Shown here piece by piece: positions 6,391 to 62,996 of a DNA stretch of 64,000 bases. Where the stretch lies: NCBI RefSeq assembly GCF_039536245.1, contig NZ_BAAAYN010000023.1, positions 68,875 through 132,874 on the forward strand, written 5' to 3'. The notes under the pieces were generated by a model, which did not search any database, was not told the DNA's origin, and saw only the letters and a program-made list of their open reading frames with translations. Made by a program: the position numbers and the translations under genes. This DNA is from Cryptosporangium minutisporangium (lineage in GTDB: Bacteria; Actinomycetota; Actinomycetes; Mycobacteriales; Cryptosporangiaceae). The number at the start of each line of letters is the position of its first letter. The stretch's first letter is position 1.

Positions 6391-6394
6391 CTGA

Positions 6395-6411
6395 TCACCC
6401 TCCAGGGATGA
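6395..6411. promoter_or_regulatory. Dyad copy 4 (TCRYCC-N5-GGRYGA)
   Basis: TCACCC-tccag-GGATGA, starting 4 bp after the preceding stop codon and 65 bp before the DUF7144 start. It heads the four-gene unit 6476-12525. Confidence 0.62.
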
Positions 6412-6475
6412 CCCTGCCGGGCGCCTCCGCCGCCACTCTGAAGCGGACGCTCGTGGGACAACGGAGGGCAGAGAC

Positions 6476-6931
6476 ATGTCTGACACCGAGGCTCCGGCGG
6501 TCGCGCCGACCGGACCGGCCAGCCATACGCAGCCGAGGGCCGAAATGACCGGATGGGCCGGCTGGGTCATATTCGCCGGCGTCCTCTTGATCTTGATCGG
6601 CGCGTTCCACGCCTGTGAAGGGCTGGTCGCCATCTTCGACCCGGGCTACTACGCGGTGACCGAGAACGGCCTGGCGATCGAGATCGACTACACCGGCTGG
6701 GGCTGGGTGCACCTGATCCTGAGCCTGCTGCTCATCGGCGCCGGCGCAGGTCTGATCGCCGGGCAGATGTGGGCCCGGGTGGTGGGGGTCGTGCTCGCGT
6801 CGTTCGGCGCACTGGTGAACCTGGCGTTCCTCGCCGCGTATCCGATCTGGTCGACGATGCTCATCGCGCTCGACGTCCTCGTCATCTACGCGATCGTCGT
6901 GCACGGCCGGGAACTCAAGTCACGCCGCTGA
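6476..6931 (+). CDS. DUF7144-like four-helix membrane protein (copy 1)
   Basis: 151 residues: a polar N-terminal tail (1-25), then four hydrophobic helices, ending in the conserved stretch YPIWSTMLIALDVLVIYAIV and HGRELK. Two paralogues lie at 16158-16598 and 21110-21586; they share GWxxW/V openings, the ...AYPxW... helix and the VHGRE C-terminus. I recognise the family as DUF7144; function is unknown. GGAGGG stands 8 bases upstream of ATG. It is first in a unit with PPK2, a P-type ATPase and SulP. The strict linkage of all three copies to the island dyad suggests a stress role. Confidence 0.8.
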   Translation: MSDTEAPAVAPTGPASHTQPRAEMTGWAGWVIFAGVLLILIGAFHACEGLVAIFDPGYYAVTENGLAIEIDYTGWGWVHLILSLLLIGAGAGLIAGQMWARVVGVVLASFGALVNLAFLAAYPIWSTMLIALDVLVIYAIVVHGRELKSRR

Positions 6932-6971
6932 GGTGCCCGCCCCGCCCGTCGACGAAGGAGTGCGATAACCG

Positions 6972-7946: not shown

Positions 7947-10648
7947 CGGAGCAGCTCGACCGCGCCACCGACGCACCGTGGTATGCAGTCACCCCGGAGG
8001 CCGTGGGGCGTTCGCTCTCGGTGGACCCGCTGCACGGGCTCACCGCCGAGCAGGTGACCGACCGGCTCGGGCGGGACGGCCGGAACGAACTGCCGGCCAG
8101 CCCGCCGGTGCCCGGCTGGCGCCGGTTCGTCGACGAGTACCGCAGCTACATGCAGCTCATCCTGCTCGGCGCGGCGATCGTCGCGGTGCTGATCCCCGAG
8201 TGGAGCACGGTCGTCATCCTGCTCGCGCTGACCGTGCTCAACGCGGTCCTCGGCCTGCGTCAGCAGGGCAAAGCCGAGGACGCGATGGCCGCGCTGCGCT
8301 CGATGACGGAGGCCACCGCGCGCGTGCGGCGCGACGGCGGCGCCGAGGCCACGATTCCGGCCTCCGGGCTGGTCGCCGGTGACGTCGTGCTGCTCAGCGC
8401 CGGTGACCAAGTGCCCGCCGACGGGCGGATCGTCTCCGCGAACGCGTTGCAGATCGACGAGTCGGCGCTGACCGGCGAGAGCGTACCTTCTGCGAAGAGC
8501 CCGGGGACGCTACCGTCCGACCCGGTCGGCCCGGGCGACCAAGCCGACATGGTCTTCATGAACACGCTGGTCACGCACGGCTCCGCGGTCGTCGTCGTCA
8601 CCGGTACCGGGCAGAGCACCGAGGTCGGGAAGATCTCCGGGATGCTGGCCGGGGGTGGGCGGAGGAAGTCTCCGCTGGCCCGGCAGCTCGACCGGCTCAC
8701 GCTCTGGATCGTCGGTGCCGCCGCCCTCACCATGCTCGTCATGTTCATCCTCGGGCGGATCCGCGGCGAGGACTGGGACGTGCTGTTCCTCAGCGCGGTC
8801 TCACTGGCGATCGCCGCGATCCCCGAGGCGCTGCCCACGGTGTCGCAGGCGATCCTCTCCCGCGGCAGCCTGGAACTCGCCGACCAGGAAGCCATCGTCA
8901 AGGACCTGCCGTCGGTCGAGACGCTGGGGTTCGTCTCGGCGATCAACACGGACAAGACCGGAACGCTGACGCTGAATCAGATGACCGCGGTCGAGGTCGT
9001 CGACGCCACCAACCGGTACACCGTTTCCGGGTCCGGCTACGAACTCACCGGCCGCATCCACCACGAGGCCGGCGCGGCCGACCGGATCGACGAGGCGATC
9101 CTGCCCTACGTGATGGCCAACGACGCCACGCTCGTCGACGACAAGGTGGTCGGCGACCCCACCGAGGGGGCACTGCTGGTCCTCGCACACAAAGCGGGCC
9201 TGGACATCGACGCGACCCGAGCGCGCTCGCCTCGATTGGCGACACTTCCGTTCGACCCCACCTACAAGCTGATGGCGACGTTCCACCGGATCACCGACCC
9301 GGGCGGACGCGAGCTCGTCCGCTGCTACGTGAAGGGCGCCGCGCCCGCGGTCATCGCCCGCACGCTGCCGGCCTCGGAGGAAGCCGCCCCCGCGTCCTGG
9401 ACGGTCGAGCCGGAACAGCGGATGGCCGCCGCGGGCCTGCGGGTCATGGCCGCTGCCACCCGGGACATCGACGCCGCCGAGTTCCAACCCGACGGTGATC
9501 TCCTGGACTTCGTCCGCGACCTGCGACTGACCAGCCTGGTCGCGATGGTCGACCCGCCGCGGAAGGAGTCCGCCGACGCGGTCGCCGGCGCGCAGAGCGC
9601 CCACATCCGCGTCCGCATGGTGACCGGCGACGACGTGGGTACCGGCGCGGCCGTCGCCCGCCAGGTCGGCATCCCCGGCGAGGCGATGCTCGGCGCGGAC
9701 TTCGCCGCACTCTCCGAGGCCGAACGACGGGAGAAGATCAACGACATCGGGGTGCTCGGCCGAGTCGCTCCGGAGCACAAGGTGATGCTGGCCGAGACGC
9801 TCCAGGCCAACGGTGACGTGGTGGCGATGACCGGGGACGGTGTCAACGACGCCCCGGCGATCAAGGCCGCGGACATCGGCATCGCGGTGGGCAGCGGCAC
9901 CGAGGTGGCGAAGGAATCCAGCCGGATGATCCTGTCGAACGACAACTTCGCGACGATCGTCTTCGCTGTCGAGCAGGGCCGGAAGATCTTCGACAACCTG
10001 CTGAAGTACATCCGGTTCGTCTTGGTCTTGCTCGTCGTGTTCGTGCTGACGTTCCTCGGCGCGTCGCTCTTCAACATCGCGGAAGGCGCACCGTTCACCC
10101 CGATCCAGGTGTTGTGGATCCACTTCTTCGTCAACGCGGCGTTCGGCTTCGCGCTGGGCTTCGACGCGCAGAGTCCGGGGCTGATGGCCCGGCCACCGCG
10201 TCGGCGCGGGCAGTCGATCGCCGATCGGGCCGTCGTCGTCACGGTGGTGCTCACCGGCCTGGTGATCAGCGCGGGCCTCCTCGCCCTGATCGTGCTGGGC
10301 CAAGAGCAGTTCGACAGCCTGGACACCGGCCGGTCGATCGCGTTCACCTCGTTCGCGTTCTGCCTGATCGTCGCCGCGTTCGAGTGCCGCAGCCAAACCG
10401 CGACCGCGTTCAGCCGAGCCTCGCTGGAGAGCCGGGTGTTCAACCGGGCCGTGCTCGCCGAGTTCGTGCTCGCCATCCTCGCCACGCAGACCGACGTCCT
10501 GCGCACCGTGCTCGGCACCACCCAGCTGACGTTCGCCGAGACGCTGTGGGCGCTGGTACCCGCGATCGTCGTCCTGGTGCTCTGGGAACTGGGCAAGCTC
10601 GCCGCGCGCCGGCACCGAGCGACCCGCGGCGCTGTCGCGGCAGGCTGA
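7943..10648 (+). CDS. P-type (P2-like) cation-transporting ATPase
   Basis: 901 residues. It has an N-terminal cation-ATPase domain; the actuator motif ALTGES (about 174-179); PEALP in the ion-binding helix (about 293); the phosphorylation site DKTGTLT (about 336-342); the nucleotide domain KGAAPAV; the hinge TGDGVNDAPA (about 630); and a six-helix C-terminal transport domain. The layout is that of Ca2+/Na+-type P2 ATPases; the transported ion is not determined. The start is the GTG overlapping the PPK2 stop. A mycobacterial analogue of this class, CtpF, belongs to the dormancy regulon, which makes the island dyad upstream of the unit notable. Confidence 0.9.
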   Translation: MTEQLDRATDAPWYAVTPEAVGRSLSVDPLHGLTAEQVTDRLGRDGRNELPASPPVPGWRRFVDEYRSYMQLILLGAAIVAVLIPEWSTVVILLALTVLNAVLGLRQQGKAEDAMAALRSMTEATARVRRDGGAEATIPASGLVAGDVVLLSAGDQVPADGRIVSANALQIDESALTGESVPSAKSPGTLPSDPVGPGDQADMVFMNTLVTHGSAVVVVTGTGQSTEVGKISGMLAGGGRRKSPLARQLDRLTLWIVGAAALTMLVMFILGRIRGEDWDVLFLSAVSLAIAAIPEALPTVSQAILSRGSLELADQEAIVKDLPSVETLGFVSAINTDKTGTLTLNQMTAVEVVDATNRYTVSGSGYELTGRIHHEAGAADRIDEAILPYVMANDATLVDDKVVGDPTEGALLVLAHKAGLDIDATRARSPRLATLPFDPTYKLMATFHRITDPGGRELVRCYVKGAAPAVIARTLPASEEAAPASWTVEPEQRMAAAGLRVMAAATRDIDAAEFQPDGDLLDFVRDLRLTSLVAMVDPPRKESADAVAGAQSAHIRVRMVTGDDVGTGAAVARQVGIPGEAMLGADFAALSEAERREKINDIGVLGRVAPEHKVMLAETLQANGDVVAMTGDGVNDAPAIKAADIGIAVGSGTEVAKESSRMILSNDNFATIVFAVEQGRKIFDNLLKYIRFVLVLLVVFVLTFLGASLFNIAEGAPFTPIQVLWIHFFVNAAFGFALGFDAQSPGLMARPPRRRGQSIADRAVVVTVVLTGLVISAGLLALIVLGQEQFDSLDTGRSIAFTSFAFCLIVAAFECRSQTATAFSRASLESRVFNRAVLAEFVLAILATQTDVLRTVLGTTQLTFAETLWALVPAIVVLVLWELGKLAARRHRATRGAVAAG

Positions 10649-10650
10649 GG

Positions 10651-12525
10651 GTGTCCACCGAGACCGGCCCGCCATCCGGGCCCACCCCGCCGTCCTCGTC
10701 GACGAACCCGACGGCCGAACCGGCCCCGCCGCCACCGGACATTTCCACCCCGACCGGCTCCGGCCCGGCCGACGAGGGGCCGTCGGCCGGGTGGGCCCGC
10801 TGGGTGCCGGGGCTGACCGTCCTCAAGACCTACCGGGCCGGCTACGCCCGGCGGGACGTCATCGCCGGCCTCGTACTCACCACGCTGCTCGTGCCACAGG
10901 GCATGGCCTACGCCGAACTGGCCGGGCTCCCGCCGATCACCGGCCTGTACACCTCGATCACGTGCTTGATCGCGTACGCGGTGTTCGGGCCGTCCCGCGT
11001 GCTGGTGCTGGGCCCGGACTCCTCGCTCGGGCCGATGATCGCCGCCGCGATTCTCCCGCTGATGGTCGCCGGCGACGATCCGGCGAAGGCGGTAACGCTC
11101 GCGGCCATGCTGTCGCTGATGGTCGGCGCCCTCATGATCGCGGCCGGAGCGGGCCACCTCGGCTTCGTCGCCGACCTACTGGCCAAGCCCACCCGGATCG
11201 GCTACCTCAACGGGTTGGCGCTGACGATCCTGGTCGGCCGGCTGCCCTCGCTGTTCGGCACGTCCGTGGACGCCGACGGCGTCGCCGCGGAGTTCGTCGG
11301 TGCGGTCCGCGCGGTCGTCACCGGTGAGGCGAACGGGATCGCGGCGGCGATCGGGCTGCTGAGCCTCGCGCTCATCCTCGGGCTGCGGCGAGTCGCTCCC
11401 CGCGTCCCCGGCATCTTGCTCGCGGTCGTGCTGGCCACCGGCCTGACCTGGCTGCTGAACCTCGACGAGCGCGGGGTCGACGTCGTCGGCGGTCTGCCGC
11501 AGGGCCTGCCCCCGTTCACGATTCCGCACGCCTCCTGGTCGGAACTCGGGCTGCTCGCCGCTGCCGCGCTGGGGATCACGCTGGTCGCCCTGACCGACAC
11601 GATCTCGACAGCGTCCGCGTTCGCCGCCCGAACCGGCAGCGCGGTGCGCCCCAACCAGGAGATGATCGGCATCGGCACCGCGAACGTCGCGGCCGGCTTC
11701 TTCCAGGGCTTTCCGGTAAGCACGAGCGGCTCGCGCACCGCGGTAGCCCACCAGTCCGGCGCCCGGACCCAGGTCACCGGCCTGGTCGGCGCGGCCGGCA
11801 TCCTGTTGCTGATTCTGCTCGCTCCCCAGCTGTTGCGGACGCTGCCGCAAGCCACGCTGGCGGCGGTCGTGATCGTGGCTGCGCTCTCCCTGACCGAGGT
11901 CTCGGCGACCAAGCGACTCTGGAAGCAGCGCCCACTGGAGTTCGCGGTGTCGATGGCCGCGTTCGTCGGTGTCGTCGTCTTCGGTGTGCTGCCCGGCATC
12001 GCCATCGCGGTCGGGCTCTCGGTGCTCAACGTGTTCCGTCGGATCTGGTGGCCGTACCAGGCGGTGCTGGGACGAGTGAGCGGCATCGACGGGTACCACG
12101 ACGTGAGCGTCCACCCCGACGCGCAGCTGGTCCCCGGACTCGTTCTCTACCGGTTCGACTCGCCGCTGATCTTCGCGAACGCCCGAACCTTCCGGACCGA
12201 GGTCCAACGGCTGGCCGACGCCGACCCCCGCCCGCAGTGGATCGTCGTCGCCGCCGAGCCGATCACCGACGTCGACACGACGGCCGCGGACATGCTCGAG
12301 GAGCTCGACCAGGACCTCAACGCGCGCGGGGTCTCGCTGGTGTTCGCCGAGCTGAAGACCCCGGTCCGGGAGAAGGTCGCGCGCTACGAGCTGACCAGGA
12401 CGATCGACCCGACCCACTTCTACCCGACGATCGAGGACGCGATCCGCGCATTCGTCGCCGCTCACCCGCCGGACTCCCCGCCGGACTCCCCGCCGAAGGA
12501 CAGGGAGTCCGGCGCGCCCGACTGA
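10651..12525 (+). CDS. SulP family anion transporter with STAS domain
   Basis: 624 residues. A disordered Pro/Ser/Thr-rich N-terminus (1-45) precedes a sulfate-permease membrane domain of about 12-14 helices (about 50-465), with VPQGMAYAELAGLPPITGLY as the family signature. A cytoplasmic STAS domain follows (about 480-605). Members move sulfate, bicarbonate or other anions. The start is GTG 10651, two bases after the ATPase stop. The end of the coding region contains a GC-rich hairpin and repeated Pro-Asp-Ser-Pro codons. It is last in the DUF7144-PPK2-ATPase unit. The exact anion is unknown. Confidence 0.88.
   Translation: MSTETGPPSGPTPPSSSTNPTAEPAPPPPDISTPTGSGPADEGPSAGWARWVPGLTVLKTYRAGYARRDVIAGLVLTTLLVPQGMAYAELAGLPPITGLYTSITCLIAYAVFGPSRVLVLGPDSSLGPMIAAAILPLMVAGDDPAKAVTLAAMLSLMVGALMIAAGAGHLGFVADLLAKPTRIGYLNGLALTILVGRLPSLFGTSVDADGVAAEFVGAVRAVVTGEANGIAAAIGLLSLALILGLRRVAPRVPGILLAVVLATGLTWLLNLDERGVDVVGGLPQGLPPFTIPHASWSELGLLAAAALGITLVALTDTISTASAFAARTGSAVRPNQEMIGIGTANVAAGFFQGFPVSTSGSRTAVAHQSGARTQVTGLVGAAGILLLILLAPQLLRTLPQATLAAVVIVAALSLTEVSATKRLWKQRPLEFAVSMAAFVGVVVFGVLPGIAIAVGLSVLNVFRRIWWPYQAVLGRVSGIDGYHDVSVHPDAQLVPGLVLYRFDSPLIFANARTFRTEVQRLADADPRPQWIVVAAEPITDVDTTAADMLEELDQDLNARGVSLVFAELKTPVREKVARYELTRTIDPTHFYPTIEDAIRAFVAAHPPDSPPDSPPKDRESGAPD
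12480..12513 (+). terminator. Hairpin inside the 3' end of the SulP gene
   Basis: GCCGGACTCCC pairs with GGGAGTCCGGC (11 bp, 12-base loop) a few codons before the SulP stop. It stands where the plus-strand unit meets the convergent DUF1269 gene 15 bp further on. No U tract follows, as is usual in actinomycetes. Confidence 0.4.
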
Positions 12526-52436: not shown

Positions 52437-53702
52437 ATGCCCGACGTTCGGCTCGCGTACGGCCGAACCGGGCTGCGCGTCCGGTTCCCCGACGACCGCA
52501 CGACGGTGGTGACGCCGCAGCACCACGCACCCGCAGCCGACCCGGCGGCGACGCTCGCCGCCGCGCTGCGCACACCGGTCGTCGGGCCGGCGTTGCGGGA
52601 GAAGGTCCGGCCAGGCCAGCGGGTGGCGGTGTCGCTGTGCGACGTCACCCGGCCGCAGCCGCGGCGGGAGATGGTCGAGGCGCTCCTCGCGGAGCTCACC
52701 GGGCTCGTGTCGCGCGACGACGTCACCCTGCTGGTGGCGACCGGTACGCACCGCGGCAACACGGACGCGGAGCTGCGCAGCATGCTCGGCGACGAACTGG
52801 TCGACACGATGCGCATCGTCAACCACGACGCCCGGGACGCCGACGCACTGCGCTGGTGCGGTGTCCACGGCAACGGGGTGCCGGTCTGGCTCAACCGGCA
52901 CTGGGTCGAGGCGGACGTGCGGATCACGACCGGCTTCGTCGAGCCGCACTTCTTCGCCGGCTTCAGCGGGGGCCCGAAACTCGTCGCACCGGGACTCGCC
53001 GGCCTGGAGACCGTCCTCGTCCTCCACGACGCGCGCCGGATCGGCGATCCGCGGGCGACCTGGGCGGTCTGCGAGGGCAACCCGGTCCACGACGACGTCC
53101 GCGCCATCGCCGCGGCGACCGGCGTCGACTACGCGCTGGACGTCGTGCTCAACCGGGAGCAGCAGATCATCGCCGCGTTCGGCGGTGACGTGCTGAGCAT
53201 GCACGCGGTGGCCCGCGACACGGTGCGCGAGATCTCGATGTGTCCCGTCGACGGACTGTTCGACGTCGTCGTCACCACCAACGCCGGCTATCCCCTGGAC
53301 CAGAACCTCTACCAGTCGGTGAAGGGCATGTCCGCGGCGGCGACCGTGGTCCGCCCAGGCGGCCTGATCATCTGTGCCGCGGAGTGCTCCGACGGCTTCC
53401 CCGACCACGGCGAGTTCCGCGAGGTGCTGGCCTCGGCTCCTACCCCGCAGGCGCTACTGGCCACGATCGCCGCGCGGGAGCGCACGGTCCCCGACCAATG
53501 GCAGGTCCAGATCCTCGCTCGGGTGCTCGACCACGCGCGGGTCGGCGTCTACACCGATCACCTCTCCGCCGACGACCTGCGAAGCGCGCACCTGGCGAAG
53601 GTGGACGACATCGCGGCGGCGATCGCCGCCGAAGGCCCGGACGCGCGGGTCTGCGTGCTGCCGGAAGGGCCGCAGACCATCCCCTTCGTACGGCGCTACT
53701 GA
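52437..53702 (+). CDS. LarA-type nickel-pincer racemase homologue
   Basis: 421 residues. The LarA motifs are conserved: CDVTRP (Arg contact), ATGTHR with His, EPHFFAGFSGGPKLVAPG with His and Lys, LVLHDARR with the Ni-ligand His, and YQSVKGM with the late Lys. LarA epimerises 2-hydroxy acids using a nickel-pincer nucleotide made by LarB, LarC and LarE, which are not in the window. It is the last gene of the fucose operon, one base after the SDR, and could turn L-lactate into D-lactate or act on another hydroxy acid of the route. Confidence 0.83.
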   Translation: MPDVRLAYGRTGLRVRFPDDRTTVVTPQHHAPAADPAATLAAALRTPVVGPALREKVRPGQRVAVSLCDVTRPQPRREMVEALLAELTGLVSRDDVTLLVATGTHRGNTDAELRSMLGDELVDTMRIVNHDARDADALRWCGVHGNGVPVWLNRHWVEADVRITTGFVEPHFFAGFSGGPKLVAPGLAGLETVLVLHDARRIGDPRATWAVCEGNPVHDDVRAIAAATGVDYALDVVLNREQQIIAAFGGDVLSMHAVARDTVREISMCPVDGLFDVVVTTNAGYPLDQNLYQSVKGMSAAATVVRPGGLIICAAECSDGFPDHGEFREVLASAPTPQALLATIAARERTVPDQWQVQILARVLDHARVGVYTDHLSADDLRSAHLAKVDDIAAAIAAEGPDARVCVLPEGPQTIPFVRRY

Positions 53703-54126: not shown

Positions 54127-54642
54127 TCAGCGGCCGGGCGTGTCCGGCCCTTGATCGGCACCGCGGCCGGTGCCGAGGCCGGTGATCACCACCCCGGCGA
54201 GATCCTCGACCGGGACGAAGCCCCACATCCGCGAGTCCGCGCTGTCGGGACTGGCGCCGAGGAGAACCACCGCGCCGGGCGGCACGGTTCGTCGGTCGCT
54301 GCCGACTGCGGCGGCGACCGACGCCGGAACCGGGTCTCCTGGCATCGCTGCCAACTTCTTGACCAGCCAATTCGTCTCGGGAGAGCCCTTCTTGACCGTC
54401 CGGCGGCCACCGATCTGATGGTGGGCGATCACCACGTCACCGACCCGGAACCGACGCGCCCGACGGACCAGGAGGCGGTCACCGTGGTCGAAGACCGGCG
54501 ACATGCTGTCGCCCACCACCTCGACCAGGAGTAGGCGCCGGCGCGCCAGCCAGACGCCTCCAAGAAGGGCGCCCGCGACGGCTAGGGCGACCACCGGCCA
54601 CACCGGGCGGGGGGTGGATCGCCAGCGTCCACAGTGGTTCAC
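54127..54642 (-). CDS. S26 family signal peptidase (peptide-cluster associated)
   Basis: 171 residues: one N-terminal helix (about 15-33), the catalytic Ser46 in GDSMSP, and the general-base Lys95 in LVKKLAAMPGD. DSADSRMWGFVPVEDLAGVV is the family C-terminal block. It is shorter than housekeeping type I signal peptidases. The GTG start has GTAGGAAC upstream. It is divergent from the MauE-like gene across 142 bp, with a GTTAGCG motif shared with the precursor promoter. It is proposed to cut the leader of the 58583 peptide after Ala-Ser-Ala. Confidence 0.85.
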   Translation of the reverse strand: MNHCGRWRSTPRPVWPVVALAVAGALLGGVWLARRRLLLVEVVGDSMSPVFDHGDRLLVRRARRFRVGDVVIAHHQIGGRRTVKKGSPETNWLVKKLAAMPGDPVPASVAAAVGSDRRTVPPGAVVLLGASPDSADSRMWGFVPVEDLAGVVITGLGTGRGADQGPDTPGR

Positions 54643-54680
54643 GTTCCTACCTGTCGCTCGTTACGGCGCCTCGGCAGCCA

Positions 54681-54698
54681 GTTGACGTTAACGCTAAC
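54681..54698. promoter_or_regulatory. Candidate SARP site in the S26/MauE intergenic region
   Basis: On the minus strand the sequence is GTTAGCGTTAACGTCAAC, sharing GTTAGCG, AACGT and AA with the repeats before the precursor gene. It ends 39 bp upstream of the signal peptidase start. Regulation by the cluster's SARP is inferred. Confidence 0.4.
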
Positions 54699-54784
54699 AA
54701 AGCGTACGTTGCGATTCTCCGTAGGTAGCCATTCCTTCAGGACTCGTAGCTCCACGACCCGACCATCGGCCCACGGGGGGCCTC

Positions 54785-55330
54785 ATGCGCGTCGTCGTCG
54801 CCACGGTGGCTCTACTGGTCATCGGGGTACTTTCGGTGTCACTTCTCAGCAAGCTCCGCAGCCGCGCCGCCTTCCGCGCATTCGCGGACGGCCTGGCCGC
54901 ACTCCGAGTGGTTCCCGGCCGCTGGGCGCCTGCGCTGGCCGGGCTGTCCGTCGCGGCCGAGATGGCGGTGGTCGGCGCTCTCCTGTGGCCCGGCGGCACC
55001 GTCGTCGGCCTGGCCGGGGGCGCGGTTCTTTTCGCCGGCTTCACTGTGGCGTTGTCCGTCGCGGTTCGGCGACGGGCCACCGTCGGCTGCCACTGCTTCG
55101 GCGTGACCAGCGCTCCGGTCGCCCCACGTCACGTGGTGCGCAGCGGATTTCTCGCTGTCACCTCACTCGCCGCGTTCTGCGGCGCCGCGACCACCTCGTC
55201 CGAACGACTGACCGGCCTCCCGGCGGCACAGCTGATCGCCGCGCTGGCGGCCGCCGGAATTCTCGTGGCGGGCCTCGTCTGGCTCGACGACTTGGTCTGG
55301 CTCTTCCGCCGCCCTGCGTCCCCCTCCTGA
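54785..55330 (+). CDS. MauE/DoxX-like redox-associated membrane protein
   Basis: 181 residues, four hydrophobic helices (about 3-21, 48-68, 72-95 and 115-170 region). A cytosol/membrane-face Cys-x-Cys pair, VGCHCFG (Cys102, Cys104), is typical of MauE-family proteins, which act with MauD in disulfide formation of exported proteins. ATG 54785. It is followed 38 bp later by a thioredoxin-fold partner, the same MauE-MauD pairing. No methylamine dehydrogenase genes are near, so the substrate must be another protein or peptide. Confidence 0.8.
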   Translation: MRVVVATVALLVIGVLSVSLLSKLRSRAAFRAFADGLAALRVVPGRWAPALAGLSVAAEMAVVGALLWPGGTVVGLAGGAVLFAGFTVALSVAVRRRATVGCHCFGVTSAPVAPRHVVRSGFLAVTSLAAFCGAATTSSERLTGLPAAQLIAALAAAGILVAGLVWLDDLVWLFRRPASPS

Positions 55331-55368
55331 CCCGGATCGGGCGTAGCCGTCTCCACAGGGGAGTTCAC

Positions 55369-55893
55369 GTGGAATTACTCGCCGCAATAGTGGCCGTACT
55401 GGCGGTCCTCGTCCTCGTCGACCTCGTGCTCAGCGCAGCGATCATCCGCCGCCTTCGGCAAACCGAGACGACCCTCATCGAGCTCCGTACGCCTCCCGAC
55501 ACCGGGCTGCCGGTGGGGGCGACCATGCCGGAGTTCAGTGCGGTCAACGGCGACCTGAGCAGCCGGGACCTCGTCGGCGAGCCCGCAGTGATCGCCTTCT
55601 TCTCCACCGGTTGTCCGCACTGCCCCGCTCAGGCCGAACGACTGGCCGCACGCGCCGACGAGCTGGCCGGCCACGGCACACGAGTGGTCAGCGTGCTGGC
55701 CGTGGCCGAGGGGACGACCGACGACCTCACCCCGACGCTCCGGAAGGCCGGACGGCTGCTCACCGAGAGTGGTCCGGACGGCCTGATGGCCGTGTTCGGC
55801 GAGACCGCGACGCCCAGCTTCCTGCTCTTCGACGCGGAGGGACGGCTCATGCGGAAGGGGCATGAACTGAGCGACGTACTGGGTAGCGGATGA
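55369..55893 (+). CDS. TlpA/MauD-like membrane-anchored thioredoxin-fold protein
   Basis: 174 residues: one N-terminal helix (about 3-25), then a redoxin domain with AFFSTGCPHCPAQ (Cys82 and Cys85 in CPHC, a disulfide-isomerase/oxidase-like motif) and ATPSFLLFDAEG with the cis-Pro loop. It is expected to face outside the membrane and pass or shuffle disulfides. The start is GTG 55369 with CAGGGGAG. It overlaps the ABC exporter gene (ATGA). It is probably the oxidising or isomerising partner for the eight-cysteine peptide. Confidence 0.83.
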   Translation: MELLAAIVAVLAVLVLVDLVLSAAIIRRLRQTETTLIELRTPPDTGLPVGATMPEFSAVNGDLSSRDLVGEPAVIAFFSTGCPHCPAQAERLAARADELAGHGTRVVSVLAVAEGTTDDLTPTLRKAGRLLTESGPDGLMAVFGETATPSFLLFDAEGRLMRKGHELSDVLGSG

Positions 55894-57734
55894 CCCGGCG
55901 GTCGCTGCGGGAGGTCCGCCGAGCCGCGTCGATCTTCCGACGCGCGTTGGGAATCTACGTCGGAGCGGCGCCGTGGGCGGCCGCGATGAGCGTCGTCGTC
56001 ATGATCGTGGCCGGGCTGGCGCCAGTGGCCTTGGCTTGGTCCACTCGCGCGATCGTCGACGGTCTGTCCGCGCGGGACGACACACGGATCTGGGTCGGCG
56101 TCCTCGGCTTCGGTGCGCTCGCGGTCCTGGCACCGGTCGTCAGCCACCTCTCCGGCTACGTACGTCAAGAGACCGAACGCCGGGTGACGGTGCGGACCCA
56201 GGTGGAGCTGTTCACGGCCGTCTCAGCCAACCCCGGCCTGGCTGAACTCGAGGACAGCACCTATCACGACCGCCTCCGCCTGGCCCGGGAGGCCAGCCAG
56301 TTCGCACCCGCCCAGCTCAGCATGGTCTTCCTCGGCGTCGGTCAGGAGGTGATCACGATCGTCGGGTTCGCGGCTCCGCTGCTGCGATGGTCGGGGTTGG
56401 TCGGTCTGCTCATCCTCCTCGCCACCGTCCCGACCTTCGTCGCCCAGGTGCGGTTGGCACGACTCCGTGGCGCGATGATGGAGCGGGTCACCCCGATCTT
56501 CCGACGCCAGGCGTTCTACGCCGCTCTCCTCCTCGACATGCGCGCCGCCAAGGAGATCCGGCTCTTCGGTCTGAGCACGTTCTTCCGCGGCCGCATGCTG
56601 CGCGAACTCCGGGCGGCGCAGCGGCAGGAACGGGACCAGGACCGGCTCGCGCTCCGCGTCGACAGTGCGCTGGCCACCCTCACCGGGCTCGTGTCGTTGG
56701 CCGCGCTCGCGGTGTTCGTCCGGGAGGTCGCCGCCGGGCGGGCCACCGTGGGCGACCTGATCGTCGTGATCGCCGCTCTCGGAGCCCTCCAGATGTCGAT
56801 GGCCAGCCTGGTGCAGCAGATCGCCAGCCTCGGAGAGACCCTGATCATGTTCGGCCACTACGTGGATGTCACCGCCGGGGCCCGGAAGTCCGCGAGCACC
56901 GCCCCGCTCCCGCCCGCTCCCCGGCTGCTGGACGCGGTGGAGTTCGACGACGTCTGGTTCCGGTACGCGGCCGACCACGACTGGGTACTACGCGGCCTGA
57001 CGCTCCGGATCCCGCGCGGGACGTCGCTGGCCCTCGTCGGGGGCAACGGCGCCGGGAAGTCGACGGTGGTGAAGCTGCTCTGCGGCTTCTACGCCCCCAC
57101 CCGGGGCGTCATCCGCTGGGATGGCGTCGACATCAGCTCGTACGACCCGGATTCGGTCCGGGCCCGTATCGGCGCCACCTTCCAGGACTTCATGACCTAC
57201 GACCTGTCCGCGCACGAGAACATCGCCCTCGGCGAGCTGCGCATGCTCGACGACCGAGACGAGGTACGGACGGCGGCGGGCACCGCCGGGTTGGACGAAA
57301 CCCTGCAGGGGCTTCCGCGTGGCTACGACACCCTGCTGACGCGGGCCTTCCACGACGACGACGGAGGCCCCCGCAGCACCGGCGTCGTGCTCTCCGGCGG
57401 GCAGTGGCAACGAATGGCGCTCGCGCGGGCGGCACTGCGCGTCGAGGCCGACGTGCTGATCCTCGACGAACCGTCCGCGGGGCTCGACGTCGAGGCCGAG
57501 CACGAGGTCCATCGGCGGCTCACCGCGCTGCGGGAGCAGCGAACCGGCCTCCTCATCTCCCACCGACTCAACACCGTGCGCGACGCCACCGCCATCGCCG
57601 TCCTCCGGGAGGGCAGGATCGCCGAGATCGGCACCCACGCGGAACTCATGGCGTCCAACGGGCACTACGCCGACCTCTTCCGCCTGCAGGCGTCCGGGTA
57701 CGACGACGCGCACGCCGATCGGATCGCGCCGTGA
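55890..57734 (+). CDS. ABC exporter, fused membrane and ATPase domains
   Basis: 614 residues: six hydrophobic helices (about 20-320), then an ATPase domain with Walker A GGNGAGKST (about 385-393), signature LSGGQWQRM (about 499-507) and Walker B VLILDEPSAG (about 521-530). It is a homodimeric exporter of the lantibiotic/bacteriocin type but without an N-terminal C39 peptidase domain, consistent with a separate S26 protease in the cluster. The start overlaps the TlpA-like gene and the end overlaps the SARP gene (GTGA). Confidence 0.88.
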   Translation: MTRRSLREVRRAASIFRRALGIYVGAAPWAAAMSVVVMIVAGLAPVALAWSTRAIVDGLSARDDTRIWVGVLGFGALAVLAPVVSHLSGYVRQETERRVTVRTQVELFTAVSANPGLAELEDSTYHDRLRLAREASQFAPAQLSMVFLGVGQEVITIVGFAAPLLRWSGLVGLLILLATVPTFVAQVRLARLRGAMMERVTPIFRRQAFYAALLLDMRAAKEIRLFGLSTFFRGRMLRELRAAQRQERDQDRLALRVDSALATLTGLVSLAALAVFVREVAAGRATVGDLIVVIAALGALQMSMASLVQQIASLGETLIMFGHYVDVTAGARKSASTAPLPPAPRLLDAVEFDDVWFRYAADHDWVLRGLTLRIPRGTSLALVGGNGAGKSTVVKLLCGFYAPTRGVIRWDGVDISSYDPDSVRARIGATFQDFMTYDLSAHENIALGELRMLDDRDEVRTAAGTAGLDETLQGLPRGYDTLLTRAFHDDDGGPRSTGVVLSGGQWQRMALARAALRVEADVLILDEPSAGLDVEAEHEVHRRLTALREQRTGLLISHRLNTVRDATAIAVLREGRIAEIGTHAELMASNGHYADLFRLQASGYDDAHADRIAP

Positions 57735-58522
57735 GCACCGACGCCCCGGTGAAGGTATCCCTGCTCGGCCCGATCGAGGTCACCGTCGCCGGCCAGCCGC
57801 TCGGGCTCGGCGGGCCCGGACGCCGAGCGCTGATCGCGGCGCTCGCGCTCAACGTCGGCACCGTGGTCGGCGTCTCCCAGCTACTGGAGGCCATCTGGGA
57901 CGACCGCCCACCGGTTACGGCGACGACCAAGTTGCAGGGACATGTGTGCGCGCTCCGGCAAGGACTCGGGCGGCTCGGCGGGTCGCGAGCCGCGCGGGTC
58001 GTCCGGACGCGGCGCCCCGGGTACGTGCTCTGCGCGCCGGACGCGGCTACTGACCTCGCCGCCTTCGACGACCTCGTGCAGCAGGCCCGGAGCACGCCGC
58101 TTCCGTCCGGCGCGGCCCGGCGCGCGGCCGCACTGGAGCAGGCCTTGCGGCTCTGGCGCGGGGACGCATGTACCGACGTCCCCTCCCCCTGGGTGGCCGC
58201 GGTGGCGGCGTCGCTGGACGAGCGCCGACGACGGGCCACCGAGGACCTCGCGGAGGCGCGGCTGGCGCTCGGCGACCACGACGCCGTCATCGACGCGATG
58301 CAGTCGCTGGTGCGGCTGACGCCCTACCGGGAACGTGCGTGGGAGCACCTGATCAGCGCACACCTGGGACGCGGCGATCTCGCGTCCGCACTCGCGGTGC
58401 ACGAGCAGCTGTGCCGGATTCTCGCGGGAGATCTCGGCGCGGCACCGGGGGTGCGCATCAGCCGCCTGATCGGCGCGATCCGGCAGTCCCGGGCCGATAG
58501 CACATCGTTAGCGGAACGTTAA
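57731..58522 (+). CDS. SARP (BTAD-domain) transcriptional activator
   Basis: 263 residues: an OmpR-like winged helix (about 8-98, with GGPGRRALIAALALN and VVRTRRPGYVLCAP) and a BTAD tetratricopeptide domain (about 105-250). Single-domain SARPs activate secondary-metabolite clusters by binding direct repeats about 11 bp apart. The start is a GTG overlapping the exporter stop. Its own last codons lie within three 11-bp repeats that precede the precursor gene, which suggests it drives that promoter. Confidence 0.88.
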   Translation: MSTDAPVKVSLLGPIEVTVAGQPLGLGGPGRRALIAALALNVGTVVGVSQLLEAIWDDRPPVTATTKLQGHVCALRQGLGRLGGSRAARVVRTRRPGYVLCAPDAATDLAAFDDLVQQARSTPLPSGAARRAAALEQALRLWRGDACTDVPSPWVAAVAASLDERRRRATEDLAEARLALGDHDAVIDAMQSLVRLTPYRERAWEHLISAHLGRGDLASALAVHEQLCRILAGDLGAAPGVRISRLIGAIRQSRADSTSLAER

Positions 58523-58539
58523 GGGCACGTGTAAGGGTC
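58507..58539. promoter_or_regulatory. Three 11-bp direct repeats, probable SARP operator
   Basis: GTTAGCGGAAC, GTTAAGGGCAC and GTGTAAGGGTC follow each other without gaps. The 11-bp period is that of SARP binding sites. The block overlaps the SARP stop codon and ends 44 bp before the precursor start. No clear -10 hexamer is visible. Confidence 0.55.
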
Positions 58540-58582
58540 CCTCTGCCGACAGGGCGTCGGCTCCAGCGGCGGAAGGAACACC

Positions 58583-58810
58583 ATGACCAAGCTCCTCAAC
58601 CGGATGGGCGACAAGATGCTCGCCAGCATGCTGCCCAAGGCGAAGGCGTCCGCGTGCGGCATCATGTGCCGGCATGCCTACACCGCCTGCGGCGGCGGCA
58701 CCTGCGTCTACTACTGGAACAAGTACGTGTCCGGCGGTCAGTACTGTTTTGCGATGCGGGAGAACTCCTGCTACTCGTCGCCGTACAGCACCCGGCCCGG
58801 GTGCTGCTGA
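58583..58810 (+). CDS. Precursor of a disulfide-rich exported peptide (8 Cys)
   Basis: 75 residues. A leader of 24 residues (MTKLLNRMGDKMLASMLPKA to KASA) is amphipathic and basic, without the hydrophobic core of a Sec signal. Ala22-Ser23-Ala24 followed by Cys25 is an ideal signal-peptidase-type cut. The mature 51 residues hold Cys25, 29, 36, 41, 55, 63, 74 and 75, plus many Gly, Tyr and Ser. Four disulfides are possible. GGAAGG lies 6 bases before the ATG. It is the last gene of the cluster. No Ser/Thr dehydratase or cyclase genes are nearby, so lanthionine formation is unlikely. Activity (bacteriocin, signal, other) is unknown. Confidence 0.75.
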   Translation: MTKLLNRMGDKMLASMLPKAKASACGIMCRHAYTACGGGTCVYYWNKYVSGGQYCFAMRENSCYSSPYSTRPGCC

Positions 58811-58815
58811 CCTCT

Positions 58816-58863
58816 CCCGCTGCGGCGCCGCCCGGGGCGAGGACGGACCGGCGCTGCGGCGGG
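58816..58863 (+). terminator. Terminator hairpin after the precursor gene
   Basis: CCCGCTGCGGCGCCG pairs with CGGCGCTGCGGCGGG along 15 positions in RNA (two G-U pairs) with an 18-base loop, directly after the precursor stop. Confidence 0.55.
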
Positions 58864-58897: not shown

Positions 58898-59344
58898 TCA
58901 CTGGTCGCGTGTCCACGTCCCGACCACCATCAGCGTCTTCGTGCCGGTGACCGGGCCGGCGTTGCGCAGGGTGTCGATCGTCTCGCGCAGATGCGCCACG
59001 TCGCGGGCCCGCAGGTAGATGAGGGCGTCGGGGTCGCCGGCGATCCCGTAGATGGCCTGGACCGCAGGCACCTTCGACGCCGACGCGACGATCTCGCTCA
59101 CCCGGGTCCGGCCGGTGTAGCGCAACTCGGTGAACGCCTCGATCCCCCACCCCAGGCGCGCGTAGTCGACCTGCACGGTGAAGCCGGTGATCACCCCGAT
59201 CTCCCGCATGCGGTCCACCCGGCGCTTGACCGCGGCGACGGACAGCCCCACGGTGCTCGCCATGTCCGAGTAGGTGCGCCGGCCGTCCTCGCGCAGCAGG
59301 GTGAGCAGGCGCTCGTCGATCTCGTCGATCTCGCTGGTGGTCAC
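58898..59344 (-). CDS. Lrp/AsnC family transcriptional regulator
   Basis: 148 residues: an AsnC helix-turn-helix (about 5-55, with TYSDMASTVGLSVAAVKRRV) and an Lrp ligand-binding (RAM) domain (about 65-145). It is expected to sense an amino acid and control the divergent indolepyruvate oxidoreductase and downstream dehydrogenase. I chose GTG 59344 because GGAGGG precedes it; an ATG five codons earlier contains that sequence. Confidence 0.88.
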   Translation of the reverse strand: MTTSEIDEIDERLLTLLREDGRRTYSDMASTVGLSVAAVKRRVDRMREIGVITGFTVQVDYARLGWGIEAFTELRYTGRTRVSEIVASASKVPAVQAIYGIAGDPDALIYLRARDVAHLRETIDTLRNAGPVTGTKTLMVVGTWTRDQ

Positions 59345-59522
59345 GCTCGGACCCTCCATCCGTCTGCGCAAACTATTGCCGGCTCCGGCGCTGATTCAAC
59401 ACTTCCTTTGCGTTGCCTTCGCCTGATTGCGTCAGAAGGTTGCGTCTGTGATGGGCGACACCTTCTCCTGTACTCCTCGACCGAAGGCACATCCTCGGCT
59501 CCTCGCCCAGGACGGAGGACGC
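59345..59522. promoter_or_regulatory. Divergent control region with Lrp-like repeats
   Basis: The 178 bp between the Lrp gene and the oxidoreductase gene hold GCAA-acta-TTGC (59368-59379) and a direct repeat TTGCGTC at 59427-59433 and 59440-59446 (13-bp period). These are plausible binding sites for the divergent Lrp protein; no firm -10/-35 pair was found. Confidence 0.35.
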
Positions 59523-62500
59523 ATGACCAGCACCGTGACCCTCGACGACAAGTACCTCGCCGAACGCGGCAACGTTCTGATCTCCGGCATCCAGGCACTG
59601 GTTCGGCTGACCCTCGAACAACGCCGCATCGATGCGGCGCGGGGACTCGACACGCGAGCCTTCGTCTCCGGTTACCAGGGGTCGCCGCTGGGTGGGGTCG
59701 ACGCGGAGATGGGCCGGGCGAAGCGCTTCCTCGACGAGCGGGGGGTCGTCTTCCGGGCCGGCGTGAACGAGGAGCTCGCGGCGACCGCGGTCGCCGGCAC
59801 CCAGCTGCTCGGCGCGCTGCCGGGTCGACGGCACGACGCGGTCACCGGCTACTGGTACGGCAAGAACCCCGGCCTCGACCGGGCCGCCGACGCCATCCGC
59901 CACGGCAACCTCGCCGGCACGTCCGCGCTCGGCGGGGCAGTCGCCTGGATCGGGGACGACCCGGCCAGCAAGTCCTCGACCGTGCCGAGCTCCTGCGAGC
60001 CGATCGCACAAAGCTTGTCGATGCCGCTGCTCGCTCCGGGGTCGGTGGCCGAGATCATCGAGTTCGGCCTGCACGCCGTCGCGATATCGCGGGCTTCCGG
60101 CTTGTGGACCGGGTTGAAGATCGTCGCGGACATCGCCGACGCCTCGGCCGTGATCGACATCGGTGGGTGCGGGCACGGGATCCCGAGGACGTCGGCTGCT
60201 GCCCGTTCCGTCTCACCGCCGTTGGTCGGTCCGGCCGCGCTCGACGCCGAGTTCGACGTCCTCACCCGCCGGCTGGACCTGGCTCGGGCCTATGCCCGGG
60301 AGGCGGGGCTCAACCGCGTCGCGTTCTCGGCACACCGCGCCCGCCTCGGCATTCTCGCTTCCGGCACCGGCTACGCCGTCGTGCAGCGGGCGCTGGAGGA
60401 CCTCGGCCTGGACGAGGGGGCGATGGCGACGCTCGGCCTGCGCCTGATCCGCCTGGCGATGCCGTTCCCGGTCGACGCCGACACGCTCGCCGAGCTGACC
60501 GGTGACCTCGAGGAGGTGCTCGTCGTCGAGGACAAGGTGCCGTTCCTCGAGGATCACCTGAAGGCGTCGCTGTACCGTCGGGCGGAGGCGCCCAACGTCG
60601 TCGGGCGGCGGGACGAGCGCGGGCGGCCGCTGCTGACGCCGCGTGGACAGCTCGGCGCCGAGGACGTGGCTCGCGCGCTGGCCACTCGGATCGAGACGGT
60701 GCTCGGCCCCGACCGGTTGCCGCGCAGCGCGACGGCGTATCTGGAGTCGATCCGGCCGGTCCGCACGGCTCGGATCGCGCTGCCGCTGGCGTCGGATTCC
60801 GGCCGCCGCACCCCCTACTTCTGCTCCGGCTGCCCGCACAACACCTCGACCCGCACGTCCGACGACACGCTGGTCGGCGTCGGCATCGGCTGCCACGCGA
60901 TGATCGCGATCTCCGGGGAAGGCCGCGGCAACCAGATCGGCCTCACCCAGATGGGCGGGGAGGGCGCCCAGTGGATCGGTCTGGCGCCGTTCACCGACGA
61001 CCGGACGTTCGTGCAGAACCTCGGGGACGGCACGTTCTTCCACTCCGGGTCGCTGGCCGTCCGCGCCGCGGTCGCCGCCGGCCTGACCATGACCTACAAG
61101 CTGCTGTACAACGACGCGGTCGCGATGACCGGTGGGCAGCGCGCCGAGGGGCGGATGGACGTCCCCACGATCACCCGGCTCCTGGCGTTGGAGGGTGTGC
61201 GCCGCATCGTCGTCACGACCGACGACCCGGATCGGTACCGGGGCGTCGCACTGGACCCGATCGCCTCGGTCCGCCACCGGGACGACTTCGCCGCGGCGGA
61301 GGACGAGCTCACCGCGCTCGACGGCGTCACCGTGCTGATCCACGACGATCGCTGCGCGGCCGAGGAGCGGCGGCTGCGCAAGCGGGGAGCGCTCCCGACT
61401 CCCGCCGAGAGGGTGGTCGTCAACGAGCGCGTGTGCGAGGGCTGCGGCGACTGCGGTGACGTCTCCACCTGCCTGTCGGTGCAGCCGGTCGAGACCGAGT
61501 TCGGCCGCAAGACCCGCATCCACCAGCCGTCCTGCAACTCCGACTTCAGCTGCCTCAAGGGTGACTGTCCCTCGTTCCTGCTGGTCGAGCCCGGCAGCCG
61601 GGCCCGCCGGGAGGTGCCCGCGCTCCCCGTCGACCTGGTCGAGCCGGAGTCGCGGCTCACCGGGGACAGCACGCTGATCCGGATGCCCGGCATCGGCGGA
61701 ACCGGCGTGGTGACCGTCTCGCAGATCCTGCAGATGGCCGCCCACCTCGACGGGCGGTTCGCCGCGGGGCTGGAGCAGGTGGGCTTGGCGCAGAAGGGTG
61801 GTCCGGTCGTCTCCGACGTCCGAATCGCCAAGAGCCGGGTGAGCGGCTCGCTGCGGGCGTCGCGCGGCACCGCGGACGTGCTGCTCGGCTTCGACCTGCT
61901 CGGTGCCGCCGACGCCGCCAATCTCGCCGTCACCCGGCCCGGCCACACCGTTGCAGTAATCAACTCCGCGATCGTTCCGACGGCGGCGATGGTCACCGGC
62001 CGGGTGCTGCCCGGCTCTCCGGACGACGCGCTGGAGCGGATCGCCGCGACGACGGTGGACCCGCTCCACCTGGACGCGCAGCGCCTCTCCGAACTGCTCT
62101 TCGACGACCACCTGCCGGCGAACATGCTGCTGGTGGGCGCCGCCTACCAGCACGGGGTGATACCGATCCCGGCTGAGGCCATCGAAGCGGCGATCCGGCT
62201 CAACGGGTCGGCGGTCGACAAGACTCTCGCCGCGTTCCGCTGGGGCCGCGCCGCGGTGCTCGACCGCGAGGCGGTGTTCGCCGCGGTGACCACGCCCGCG
62301 CAGGCCGTGGTTGAGGTCGGCCCGCGCGACCGCGCGCTCGCCGGAGCGGGGGCCGATGCGCTGACTTCCGTGCTGGCCACCCGGGTCGCCGACCTCACCG
62401 GCTTCCAGGACGAGGCCTACGCGGCCCGCTACGCCGAGGACGTCCGCCGGGTCACCACGCTGGCGACCGAGCGCGCCGGTGTCGACGCCGGGCACCGGAT

Positions 62501-62996
62501 CGGCCTCGCCTACGCCCGGGGCCTGCACAAGCTCATGGCGTACAAGGACGAGTACGAGGTGGCCCGGCTCCACCTCGATCCGGTGGAGCGGGCTCGCCGG
62601 GCCGAGCAGTTCGGCGCCGACGCCACTGTCTCCGTCCTGTTGCACCCGCCGGTGCTGCGGGCCCTCGGGATGAAGCGCAAGATCCGGCTGGGCGGCCGCA
62701 GCGCCACCGCCGCCTTCACCACTCTGCGCGCCGCGCGGCGTCTGCGCGGCACCCGACTCGACGCGTTCGGCTACGCCGAGGTCCGCCGGGTCGAGCGGGC
62801 ACTCATCGGCGAGTACCGAGCGCTCGTGCGCCGTGCGCTCCGCCATCTCGACGCGGGCACCGCGGACCGGGTCGAGGCGCTCGCCGGCCTTCCCGACGTC
62901 GTCCGCGGATACGAGGACATCAAGCTCGCGAACGTCGAACGGTTCCGGACGCAGGCAGCAGCCCTGCTCACATCCCTCGGAGAGGAACAACGATGA
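59523..62996 (+). CDS. Indolepyruvate ferredoxin oxidoreductase family protein
   Basis: 1157 residues, one chain. An N-terminal ThDP pyrimidine-binding part (GYQGSPLGGVDAEM, about 44-57) and a ThDP-binding part (CSGCPHN, GIGCHAM, about 435-465) are followed by a Cys-rich segment (VCEGCGDCGDVSTC, CNSDFSCLKGDCPS) and a gamma domain (GIGGTGVVTVSQIL, about 723-736). It oxidatively decarboxylates arylpyruvates or branched 2-keto acids to acyl-CoA with ferredoxin. It lacks a separate ferredoxin partner in the window. ATG 59523 follows GACGGAGGA. The next gene overlaps its stop. Confidence 0.9.
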   Translation: MTSTVTLDDKYLAERGNVLISGIQALVRLTLEQRRIDAARGLDTRAFVSGYQGSPLGGVDAEMGRAKRFLDERGVVFRAGVNEELAATAVAGTQLLGALPGRRHDAVTGYWYGKNPGLDRAADAIRHGNLAGTSALGGAVAWIGDDPASKSSTVPSSCEPIAQSLSMPLLAPGSVAEIIEFGLHAVAISRASGLWTGLKIVADIADASAVIDIGGCGHGIPRTSAAARSVSPPLVGPAALDAEFDVLTRRLDLARAYAREAGLNRVAFSAHRARLGILASGTGYAVVQRALEDLGLDEGAMATLGLRLIRLAMPFPVDADTLAELTGDLEEVLVVEDKVPFLEDHLKASLYRRAEAPNVVGRRDERGRPLLTPRGQLGAEDVARALATRIETVLGPDRLPRSATAYLESIRPVRTARIALPLASDSGRRTPYFCSGCPHNTSTRTSDDTLVGVGIGCHAMIAISGEGRGNQIGLTQMGGEGAQWIGLAPFTDDRTFVQNLGDGTFFHSGSLAVRAAVAAGLTMTYKLLYNDAVAMTGGQRAEGRMDVPTITRLLALEGVRRIVVTTDDPDRYRGVALDPIASVRHRDDFAAAEDELTALDGVTVLIHDDRCAAEERRLRKRGALPTPAERVVVNERVCEGCGDCGDVSTCLSVQPVETEFGRKTRIHQPSCNSDFSCLKGDCPSFLLVEPGSRARREVPALPVDLVEPESRLTGDSTLIRMPGIGGTGVVTVSQILQMAAHLDGRFAAGLEQVGLAQKGGPVVSDVRIAKSRVSGSLRASRGTADVLLGFDLLGAADAANLAVTRPGHTVAVINSAIVPTAAMVTGRVLPGSPDDALERIAATTVDPLHLDAQRLSELLFDDHLPANMLLVGAAYQHGVIPIPAEAIEAAIRLNGSAVDKTLAAFRWGRAAVLDREAVFAAVTTPAQAVVEVGPRDRALAGAGADALTSVLATRVADLTGFQDEAYAARYAEDVRRVTTLATERAGVDAGHRIGLAYARGLHKLMAYKDEYEVARLHLDPVERARRAEQFGADATVSVLLHPPVLRALGMKRKIRLGGRSATAAFTTLRAARRLRGTRLDAFGYAEVRRVERALIGEYRALVRRALRHLDAGTADRVEALAGLPDVVRGYEDIKLANVERFRTQAAALLTSLGEEQR

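Follow-up and report, generated by a model that had tools for sequence, protein, structure and literature searches.

A probable SARP-controlled export and folding cluster for a disulfide-rich peptide in Cryptosporangium minutisporangium

The clusters of sublancin and the glycocins encode the thiol oxidoreductases BdbA/BdbB together with a glycosyltransferase and a C39 exporter, and their precursors carry a double-glycine leader. MauE and MauD, on the other hand, serve the maturation of methylamine dehydrogenase. Both systems resemble a cluster located at positions 54127-58810 of a 64,000-nt stretch of Cryptosporangium minutisporangium DNA (the whole stretch is called the window below), in which a gene for a 75-residue peptide lies beside genes for an S26-family signal peptidase, a MauE-like membrane protein, a TlpA-like thioredoxin-fold protein with a CxxC motif, an ABC exporter and a SARP-type activator. 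With the sublancin/glycocin clusters it has in common an ABC-exported peptide and cluster-encoded disulfide machinery, but it contains no glycosyltransferase, C39 exporter or double-glycine leader. The likeness to methylamine dehydrogenase maturation lies in MauE and a thioredoxin-fold partner acting for an exported multi-disulfide small protein, but here there are no dehydrogenase genes and the peptide is unrelated. Class II bacteriocins (e.g., pediocin PA-1 with PedC) are also small cationic disulfide peptides with a short leader and a dedicated ABC exporter; their leaders end in Gly-Gly and are served by C39, whereas the window leader ends in Ala-x-Ala and is accompanied by a separate S26 enzyme. 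The GG/GA leader end and C39 exporter that define this class were not found at the locus, and a whole-genome search for C39 peptidases was empty, while the same search was positive in 8 of 14 control genomes.

The closest precedent is a genome-mining study with decRiPPter, which reported 42 candidate families of ribosomally synthesized and post-translationally modified peptides (RiPPs) in Streptomyces, three with mauE and one of them also with mauD (Kloosterman et al. 2020, PMC7794033). Each precursor of these mauE families has at least eight Cys, the families were filtered for a transporter, a peptidase and a regulator, and the authors proposed that MauE modifies the precursor, with mention of its supposed role in disulfide formation (PMC7794033). 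Apart from the genus, all of these features, as that account lists them, are shared with the window, and on a comparison by description the decRiPPter mauE families are likely this same family. The account is a prediction and concerns Streptomyces only; its main text has no thioredoxin, S26, signal peptidase or SARP, although "s26" occurs once somewhere in the file, and its section 7 gives neither a leader motif nor a parity rule (PMC7794033). The initial annotation had not recognized the gene set as a described family and so missed this study; the concept is already in print as a prediction. Among the literature matches listed, it was the only one tying MauE to RiPPs. The shared leader, the logic of S26 and ABC, the parity of cysteines, the operator and an occurrence outside Streptomyces were not found in the literature searched, which left most subscription papers and bioRxiv outside its scope. 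The cluster is real and well delimited. It varies the theme of secreted disulfide-rich peptides by bringing along genes of its own for export and maturation, and it was partly foreseen.

The gene set is best read as an export-and-folding cluster under SARP control whose product is a ribosomally made, secreted and disulfide-rich peptide, most likely an antagonistic one, and we place the probability of this reading at roughly three in four. SARP would switch on the peptide gene through 11-bp repeats. The 24-residue amphipathic leader, which is not a Sec signal, would bring the precursor to an ABC exporter dedicated to it, and S26 would cleave it after Ala22-Ser23-Ala24 outside the membrane. The membrane-tethered TlpA-like CxxC protein would pair all cysteines, forming four disulfides in this case, and MauE would re-oxidise the TlpA-like protein. 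The product would most likely be an antagonistic mini-protein of a defensin- or bacteriocin-like kind. The computed support consists of gene content, co-occurrence, conservation of the leader and of the cleavage motif, even numbers of Cys and a repeat operator; the redox direction, the cleavage, the order of the steps and the activity of the product are inferred.

The peptide gene (58583-58810, + strand) encodes 75 residues with an Ala22-Ser23-Ala24|Cys25 site and eight Cys, every one after residue 24, in agreement with what the initial annotation had described. Its leader region (residues 1-24, MTKLLNRMGDKMLASMLPKAKASA) occupies 58583..58654 (+) and is delimited by family-wide leader conservation; the core region (residues 25-75 plus stop, 58655..58810, +) has the eight Cys, for which the even numbers seen family-wide predict four disulfides. 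An 87% identical copy with the same gene order is found in a congener (G001), and the peptide of Paractinoplanes rishiriensis, with 54% identity, keeps all eight Cys beside the same gene neighbours. These two copies beside the same genes show that the open reading frame (ORF) is not a chance one. The peptide had no match in Pfam, NCBIfam and PADLOC and only chance-level matches to solved structures, while an anti-phage defence library gave no match for the peptide, MauE, the TlpA-like protein or S26.

Relatives were collected with the peptide and also without it. A single-sequence search matched 5 of 394 genomes of the class, its own included, and a scan of genome contigs gave nothing. A five-sequence profile then led to 40 more stretches, which together with the earlier loci make 43 peptide-selected loci. 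In these, TlpA, ABC and S26 were each found in 40 of the 43, and all three with the peptide in 39; at L088, L090 and L091 the stretch lacks the TlpA/ABC pair in spite of its peptides. The constant partners of the peptide are TlpA, ABC and S26, and MauE is the least constant (30/43). In the peptide-blind test, scanning of named genomes with the MauE alignment produced 42 loci from genera including Microbispora, Nonomuraea, Streptosporangium, Planomonospora, Rhizohabitans, Streptomyces, Amycolatopsis, Micromonospora and Paractinoplanes. TlpA and ABC were in the stretch at 32 of the 42 loci, with S26 also present in 31 of those 32. The leader peptide was found in 31 of the 32 MauE+TlpA+ABC loci, that is, 29 directly and two (L108 and L131) once the ORF-length filter was dropped, and in none of the nine loci where MauE stands alone. 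At one more locus (L096) the contig is cut, only TlpA is present beside MauE and the peptide candidate is weak. Seven of the 42 loci are on contigs that had been used in the first round, and six of these had contributed training leaders; after removal of the seven the figure is 24 of 25. The leader model gave no match in 641 kb of reversed sequences.

Loci in a plasmid collection were chosen by the ABC protein, which 41 records match, and the four Streptomyces loci that were opened all have peptide, MauE, TlpA, ABC and S26, one with a weak leader score (E 0.011). Their peptides are labelled "hypothetical protein" in the three annotated records, one of which, a 707 kb plasmid of Streptomyces clavuligerus, carries two tandem family peptides. 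The conserved Cys-rich small gene beside MauE/TlpA/S26/ABC sets, expected at the outset, was thus borne out in both the MauE-selected and the plasmid loci. With a larger alignment, 23 of 394 genomes in an even draw over the class match at E<=1e-4, in 9 of 138 genera, and two genomes of another taxonomic family show the same leader beside MauE, TlpA, ABC and S26. The family of the peptide is real and widespread, and it is uncharacterised.

Within the congener G001, a 37-sequence profile detected members that the single-sequence search had missed, giving seven family peptides at five sites (L183-L186 and L015) between 3.91 and 4.36 Mb, a span of ~450 kb. With the same profile no family peptide was found in the congeners G002 and G003 or in genome G004. 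The 87% copy of G001 adjoins another family peptide that has a TlpA-ABC-S26 set of its own. The four further sites hold five peptides with 6, 8, 12, 6 and 8 Cys, accompanied by ABC and S26 at all four and by TlpA at three. In L015 (4740-12590) the two adjacent TlpA-ABC-S26-peptide sets have a single MauE, as if shared. At a larger scale, Rhizohabitans arisaemae (L119, 2967-8850) has seven divergent tandem peptide genes around one TlpA-ABC-S26-MauE set. Tandem paralogues and patchy presence in congeners suggest that the family is an accessory, fast-diversifying trait.

Grouping of one hundred peptides at 60% identity gave 39 core clusters, and 37 representative leaders and cores were profiled. 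The leader is exactly 24 residues long in 30 of the 37 and is most strongly conserved at its Ala-x-Ala site (A-1 and A-3, 36/37 each), followed by P-7 (35/37), D-15 (33/37) and R-14 (31/37), so that most leaders have an Asp-Arg in the middle. The best 8-residue mean hydropathy is 0.86 in the window leader, with a median of 1.35 (0.45-1.76) over the 37 leaders. As it has no Sec-type hydrophobic core, the leader resembles an amphipathic helix followed by the c-region of a signal peptide. The lack of a hydrophobic h-region also sets the peptide apart from Sec-dependent peptides and lipoproteins; a lipoprotein reading of ASA|C was ruled out on this ground, and only 5 of 37 cores begin with Cys. 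Mean identity is 0.43 for the leader versus 0.28 for the core (39 core clusters, one spurious cluster included), which is the conserved leader with a variable core that is typical of RiPPs.

The cores (n=37) have 31-58 residues, 16.6% Cys, 7.8% Tyr, 4.4% Trp and a median net charge of +2. Counted beyond the leader, cysteines are even in number in 38 of 39 core clusters and in 99 of 100 peptides; the sole odd case (L107:12426-12635, E 0.5) is a spurious call. All five plasmid peptides and all five further congener peptides are also even. Among other small ORFs from these loci that contain four or more Cys, 185 have an even and 69 an odd number, 62 of them having five. The family shows 4, 6, 8, 10 or 12 Cys and never five, seven or nine, which is what full disulfide pairing predicts; by eye, the spacing of Cys differs among core clusters. 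The initial annotation had joined these proteins into one pathway for a leader-cleaved, oxidatively folded peptide, and the co-occurrence together with the conservation of A-1 and A-3 supports this well, with processing and disulfides as its predicted elements.

The same maturation might serve a signal or a developmental or surface peptide, such as a pheromone, a spore-coat or an aerial-growth protein. The host actinomycetes sporulate, the cluster is probably under SARP control and no constant immunity gene was found among the neighbours scanned, all of which would suit such a role. The cores are, however, very variable and cationic, the paralogues stand in tandem arrays, copies occur on plasmids, and the distribution is patchy, with 23 of 394 genomes positive and two of three congeners negative. 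Competition fits these features better and they favour an antagonistic peptide, so a signalling or developmental product is considered unlikely, if still worth keeping in mind.

The surroundings of the gene set bear on its chemistry. In a census of unlabelled neighbours of 46 ABC groups, made with a crude custom ORF caller, the commonest was a SARP-type regulator (27/46 groups), and the next (13 groups) was an ORF antisense to S26, as checked in L103. A Pfam scan covered 86 of the 180 ORFs picked at 43 representative loci, and the figures that follow are among the families listed, the first 25 of 40 and of 65 in the two batches. BTAD (22) and NB-ARC (18) recur, with AAA and TPR parts, and the minor families are MFS (3), AraC-type regulators (3), ABC ATPases (3), S15 peptidases (2), FAD_binding_2 (2) and at least two FtsX-type permeases, one of these inside the Paractinoplanes cluster. 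In the latter (L092, 5822-9871, Paractinoplanes rishiriensis) an FtsX-like permease and an ABC ATPase lie between the ABC exporter and S26, and possibly form a self-immunity transporter. Known RiPP modification enzymes do not recur among the families listed, and Pfam and NCBIfam gave no match to one in the window cluster, which also has none of the enzymes that define lanthipeptides, lasso peptides, thiopeptides and sactipeptides, as the initial annotation had stated.

A second MauE+TlpA+ABC+SARP set was found in the genome of the window itself (G000:C24, L175, 23000-42000, at 5029-11271). It resembles the window cluster in SARP, MauE, TlpA, ABC and a Cys-rich ORF (97 residues, six Cys) but differs in having an ATP-grasp peptide maturase of the graspetide type (TIGR04187, 251 bits, below the cut-off of 350) and a ClpP-like SDH protease, with no S26 match and no family leader in the stretch. 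The MauE-TlpA-ABC unit therefore seems to be a portable one, in which the protease changes along with the leader, and it may be asked whether a disulfide module is joined there to omega-ester chemistry. This combination with another chemistry lends some colour to the idea that the window peptide is a RiPP with merely accessory disulfides, modified mainly by an enzyme from another locus. Nevertheless, no known RiPP modification enzyme recurs among the neighbour ORFs scanned at the 43 loci (86 of 180 picked) and the even Cys counts need disulfides alone, which makes a remote enzyme improbable.

As a tentative extension of the export-and-folding reading, the family may represent a new class of exported leaders, in which a 24-residue amphipathic helix docks on the ABC exporter and a Sec-style c-region is cut by a dedicated S26. 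Its products would be hypervariable antagonistic mini-proteins with two to six disulfides across actinomycetes, folded outside the cell by MauE and TlpA, and the module would be a portable one that swaps protease and modification enzyme with the type of leader.

The catalytic Ser46 and Lys95 of S26 are invariant in the alignment of 42 cluster sequences, the motif of MauE is C-x-C-F-G or C-x-C-L-G in all but one of 51 non-redundant sequences, and CxxC is found in 46 of 47 TlpA-like proteins with a varied dipeptide (CPHC in the window; CSAC, CEPC, CPAC and others elsewhere). CPHC had been considered a family-wide mark of a DsbA-like oxidase, and this was dropped after the CxxC tally. TlpA proteins are often reductases. 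The variation of the dipeptide would thus suit a reductive TlpA/MauE pair, or a metal-binding peptide, with cysteines that stay thiols. Against this stand the predicted export, a Cys spacing that by eye differs between core clusters, and Cys numbers of 4, 6, 8, 10 and 12 without 5, 7 or 9, which fit pairing; free thiols are very improbable. MauE and a MauD/TlpA-like protein beside a multi-Cys small protein could also suggest that the peptide serves a redox enzyme as its small subunit or as the carrier of its cofactor, with a maturation like that of MauA of methylamine dehydrogenase. This is barely credible, as core sequence and Cys number are far too variable for an enzyme subunit, no methylamine-dehydrogenase-like neighbour is among the families listed (FAD_binding_2 occurs once per batch), and the light chain was not found in the genome, a weak point since the search control was silent too.

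Several observations weigh against an export-and-folding cluster for an antagonistic peptide, and are given together. MauE is absent from 13 of the 43 peptide-selected stretches, perhaps in some cases cut off or outside the stretch, and is present at just two of the four further G001 sites. L090 and L091 carry family peptides yet have no module, and at the full-module locus L104 no peptide was detected. The CxxC dipeptides are not uniformly DsbA-like, and with such variety the reaction may be an isomerisation or a reduction in place of an oxidation. The AlphaFold2 model of MauE is a helical bundle with a predicted local distance difference test (pLDDT) score of 91.6, and Foldseek gave no significant match to it in the PDB; with no solved relative, a DsbB-like role would follow by family analogy only. 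In Mantel tests (31 loci), leader and core each correlate with all four partners (r 0.33-0.55), and as they do so similarly, neither the leader-ABC nor the leader-S26 pair is singled out; shared descent alone could give such correlations. Between the window and the congener, 6 of 24 positions change in the leader and 4 of 51 in the core, the reverse of the family trend. A constant immunity gene was not found among the neighbours scanned, and the AlphaFold2 model of the peptide (pLDDT 51.7) is unusable, being too poor for a structure search.

If the export-and-folding reading is true, actinomycetes hold a large reservoir of encoded disulfide-locked mini-proteins, annotated as hypothetical where checked, with a leader motif simple enough for members to be retrieved by profile search. 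MauE would gain an oxidative-folding role outside methylamine metabolism, and there would be a Gram-positive route to producing multi-disulfide peptides, with a single cluster that supplies leader, exporter, peptidase and oxidase. The 2020 decRiPPter guess, as far as the paper sets it out, would become directly testable, for instance in Streptomyces clavuligerus.

As for the organization of the locus, S26 is on the minus strand and is followed by MauE, TlpA-like, ABC, SARP and peptide genes, all on the plus strand. The initial annotation had placed all of these parts correctly in one cluster at 54127-58863; S26 is, however, divergently transcribed and outside the operon, and the cluster ends at 58810. 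The identities it had given to the five neighbours were upheld by Pfam and NCBIfam. The S26 protein (54127..54642, −; 171 aa; TIGR02227 with 52.5 bits, over the cut-off, and PF10502) has a single N-terminal membrane segment, transmembrane-like at residues 13-34, and the Ser46/Lys95 catalytic pair, and is predicted to be the leader peptidase. The host genome of 9.2 Mb has four further S26-like genes, and so the cluster enzyme looks dedicated. The MauE-like protein (54785..55330, +; 181 aa; PF07291, 77 bits) bears a CHCFG motif and is the predicted re-oxidant of the TlpA-like protein by analogy. The latter (55369..55893, +; 174 aa; AhpC-TSA, PF00578) has a transmembrane-like segment at residues 1-30 and, in its CPHC motif, its sole two Cys (82 and 85), and is predicted to be a membrane-anchored oxidant or isomerase of the exported peptide. 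The exporter (55890..57734, +; 614 aa) has its permease fused to the ATPase and, according to Pfam and NCBIfam, no C39 domain, and the SARP/BTAD activator (57731..58522, +; 263 aa) matches PF03704 with 107.9 bits. The TlpA-ABC and ABC-SARP frames overlap, which suggests one transcript.

Upstream of mauE, a promoter-like TTGACG-17 nt-TACGTT (54682..54710, +) keeps its layout in the congener and was missed by a consensus promoter scan. Ahead of the peptide ATG there is a GGAAGGA resembling a ribosome-binding site (58571..58577, +). Heptamer repeats at an 11-bp period are the layout of SARP operators. Four heptamers with this period (CGATAGC, CGTTAGC, CGTTAAG and CGTGTAA; 58495..58534, +) precede the peptide gene of the window, and these with the SARP gene point to a SARP-regulated cluster with a candidate operator. 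The congener has the first two unchanged and the other two with one base different in each, and upstream of the Paractinoplanes peptide gene TCGTTAG occurs twice at an 11-bp period. Of the 37 upstream regions of the family, 13 have repeats with a match of 6/7 or more at 11 bp, versus 1-8 of 37 at five other spacings, an excess that points to enrichment and is not proof of a SARP operator.

Some loci stand apart from the gene set. MauE alone, with no TlpA, ABC or peptide nearby, is found at L093, L101, L110, L112, L113, L122, L128, L129 and L133, which would point to another use of MauE; viral contigs held no relative of the window MauE. The peptides of L090 (four, 7365-8235) and L091 (two, 8080-8262) have no TlpA/ABC in a 16 kb stretch, and are possibly orphan arrays served by a distant module. 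A count of 150 of 341 genomes (E<=0.01, family of G020) obtained with the five-sequence profile included many weak matches and was not used, and early peptide matches in G107, G131 and G004 were dropped as no module surrounds them. In G131, a 3 Mb genome, two ORFs (L016, 8082-8231, and L019, 4955-5179) share 45% over 44 and 33% over 36 residues with the peptide; they have no A-x-A end or module, and represent chance or a remote relative.

The flanks of the cluster (window 52437-53702 and 58898-62996) contain genes for LarA, a nickel-dependent lactate racemase, for an Lrp/AsnC regulator and for an oxidoreductase, all seemingly unrelated to it. The oxidoreductase (59427-62996) is a POR/TPP-type ferredoxin oxidoreductase of 1189 aa with DUF6537. 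In G001 the 87% copy is ~271 kb from the homologue of this flanking gene, and another family cluster is within ~2 kb of that homologue, so this region may be a shared insertion spot.

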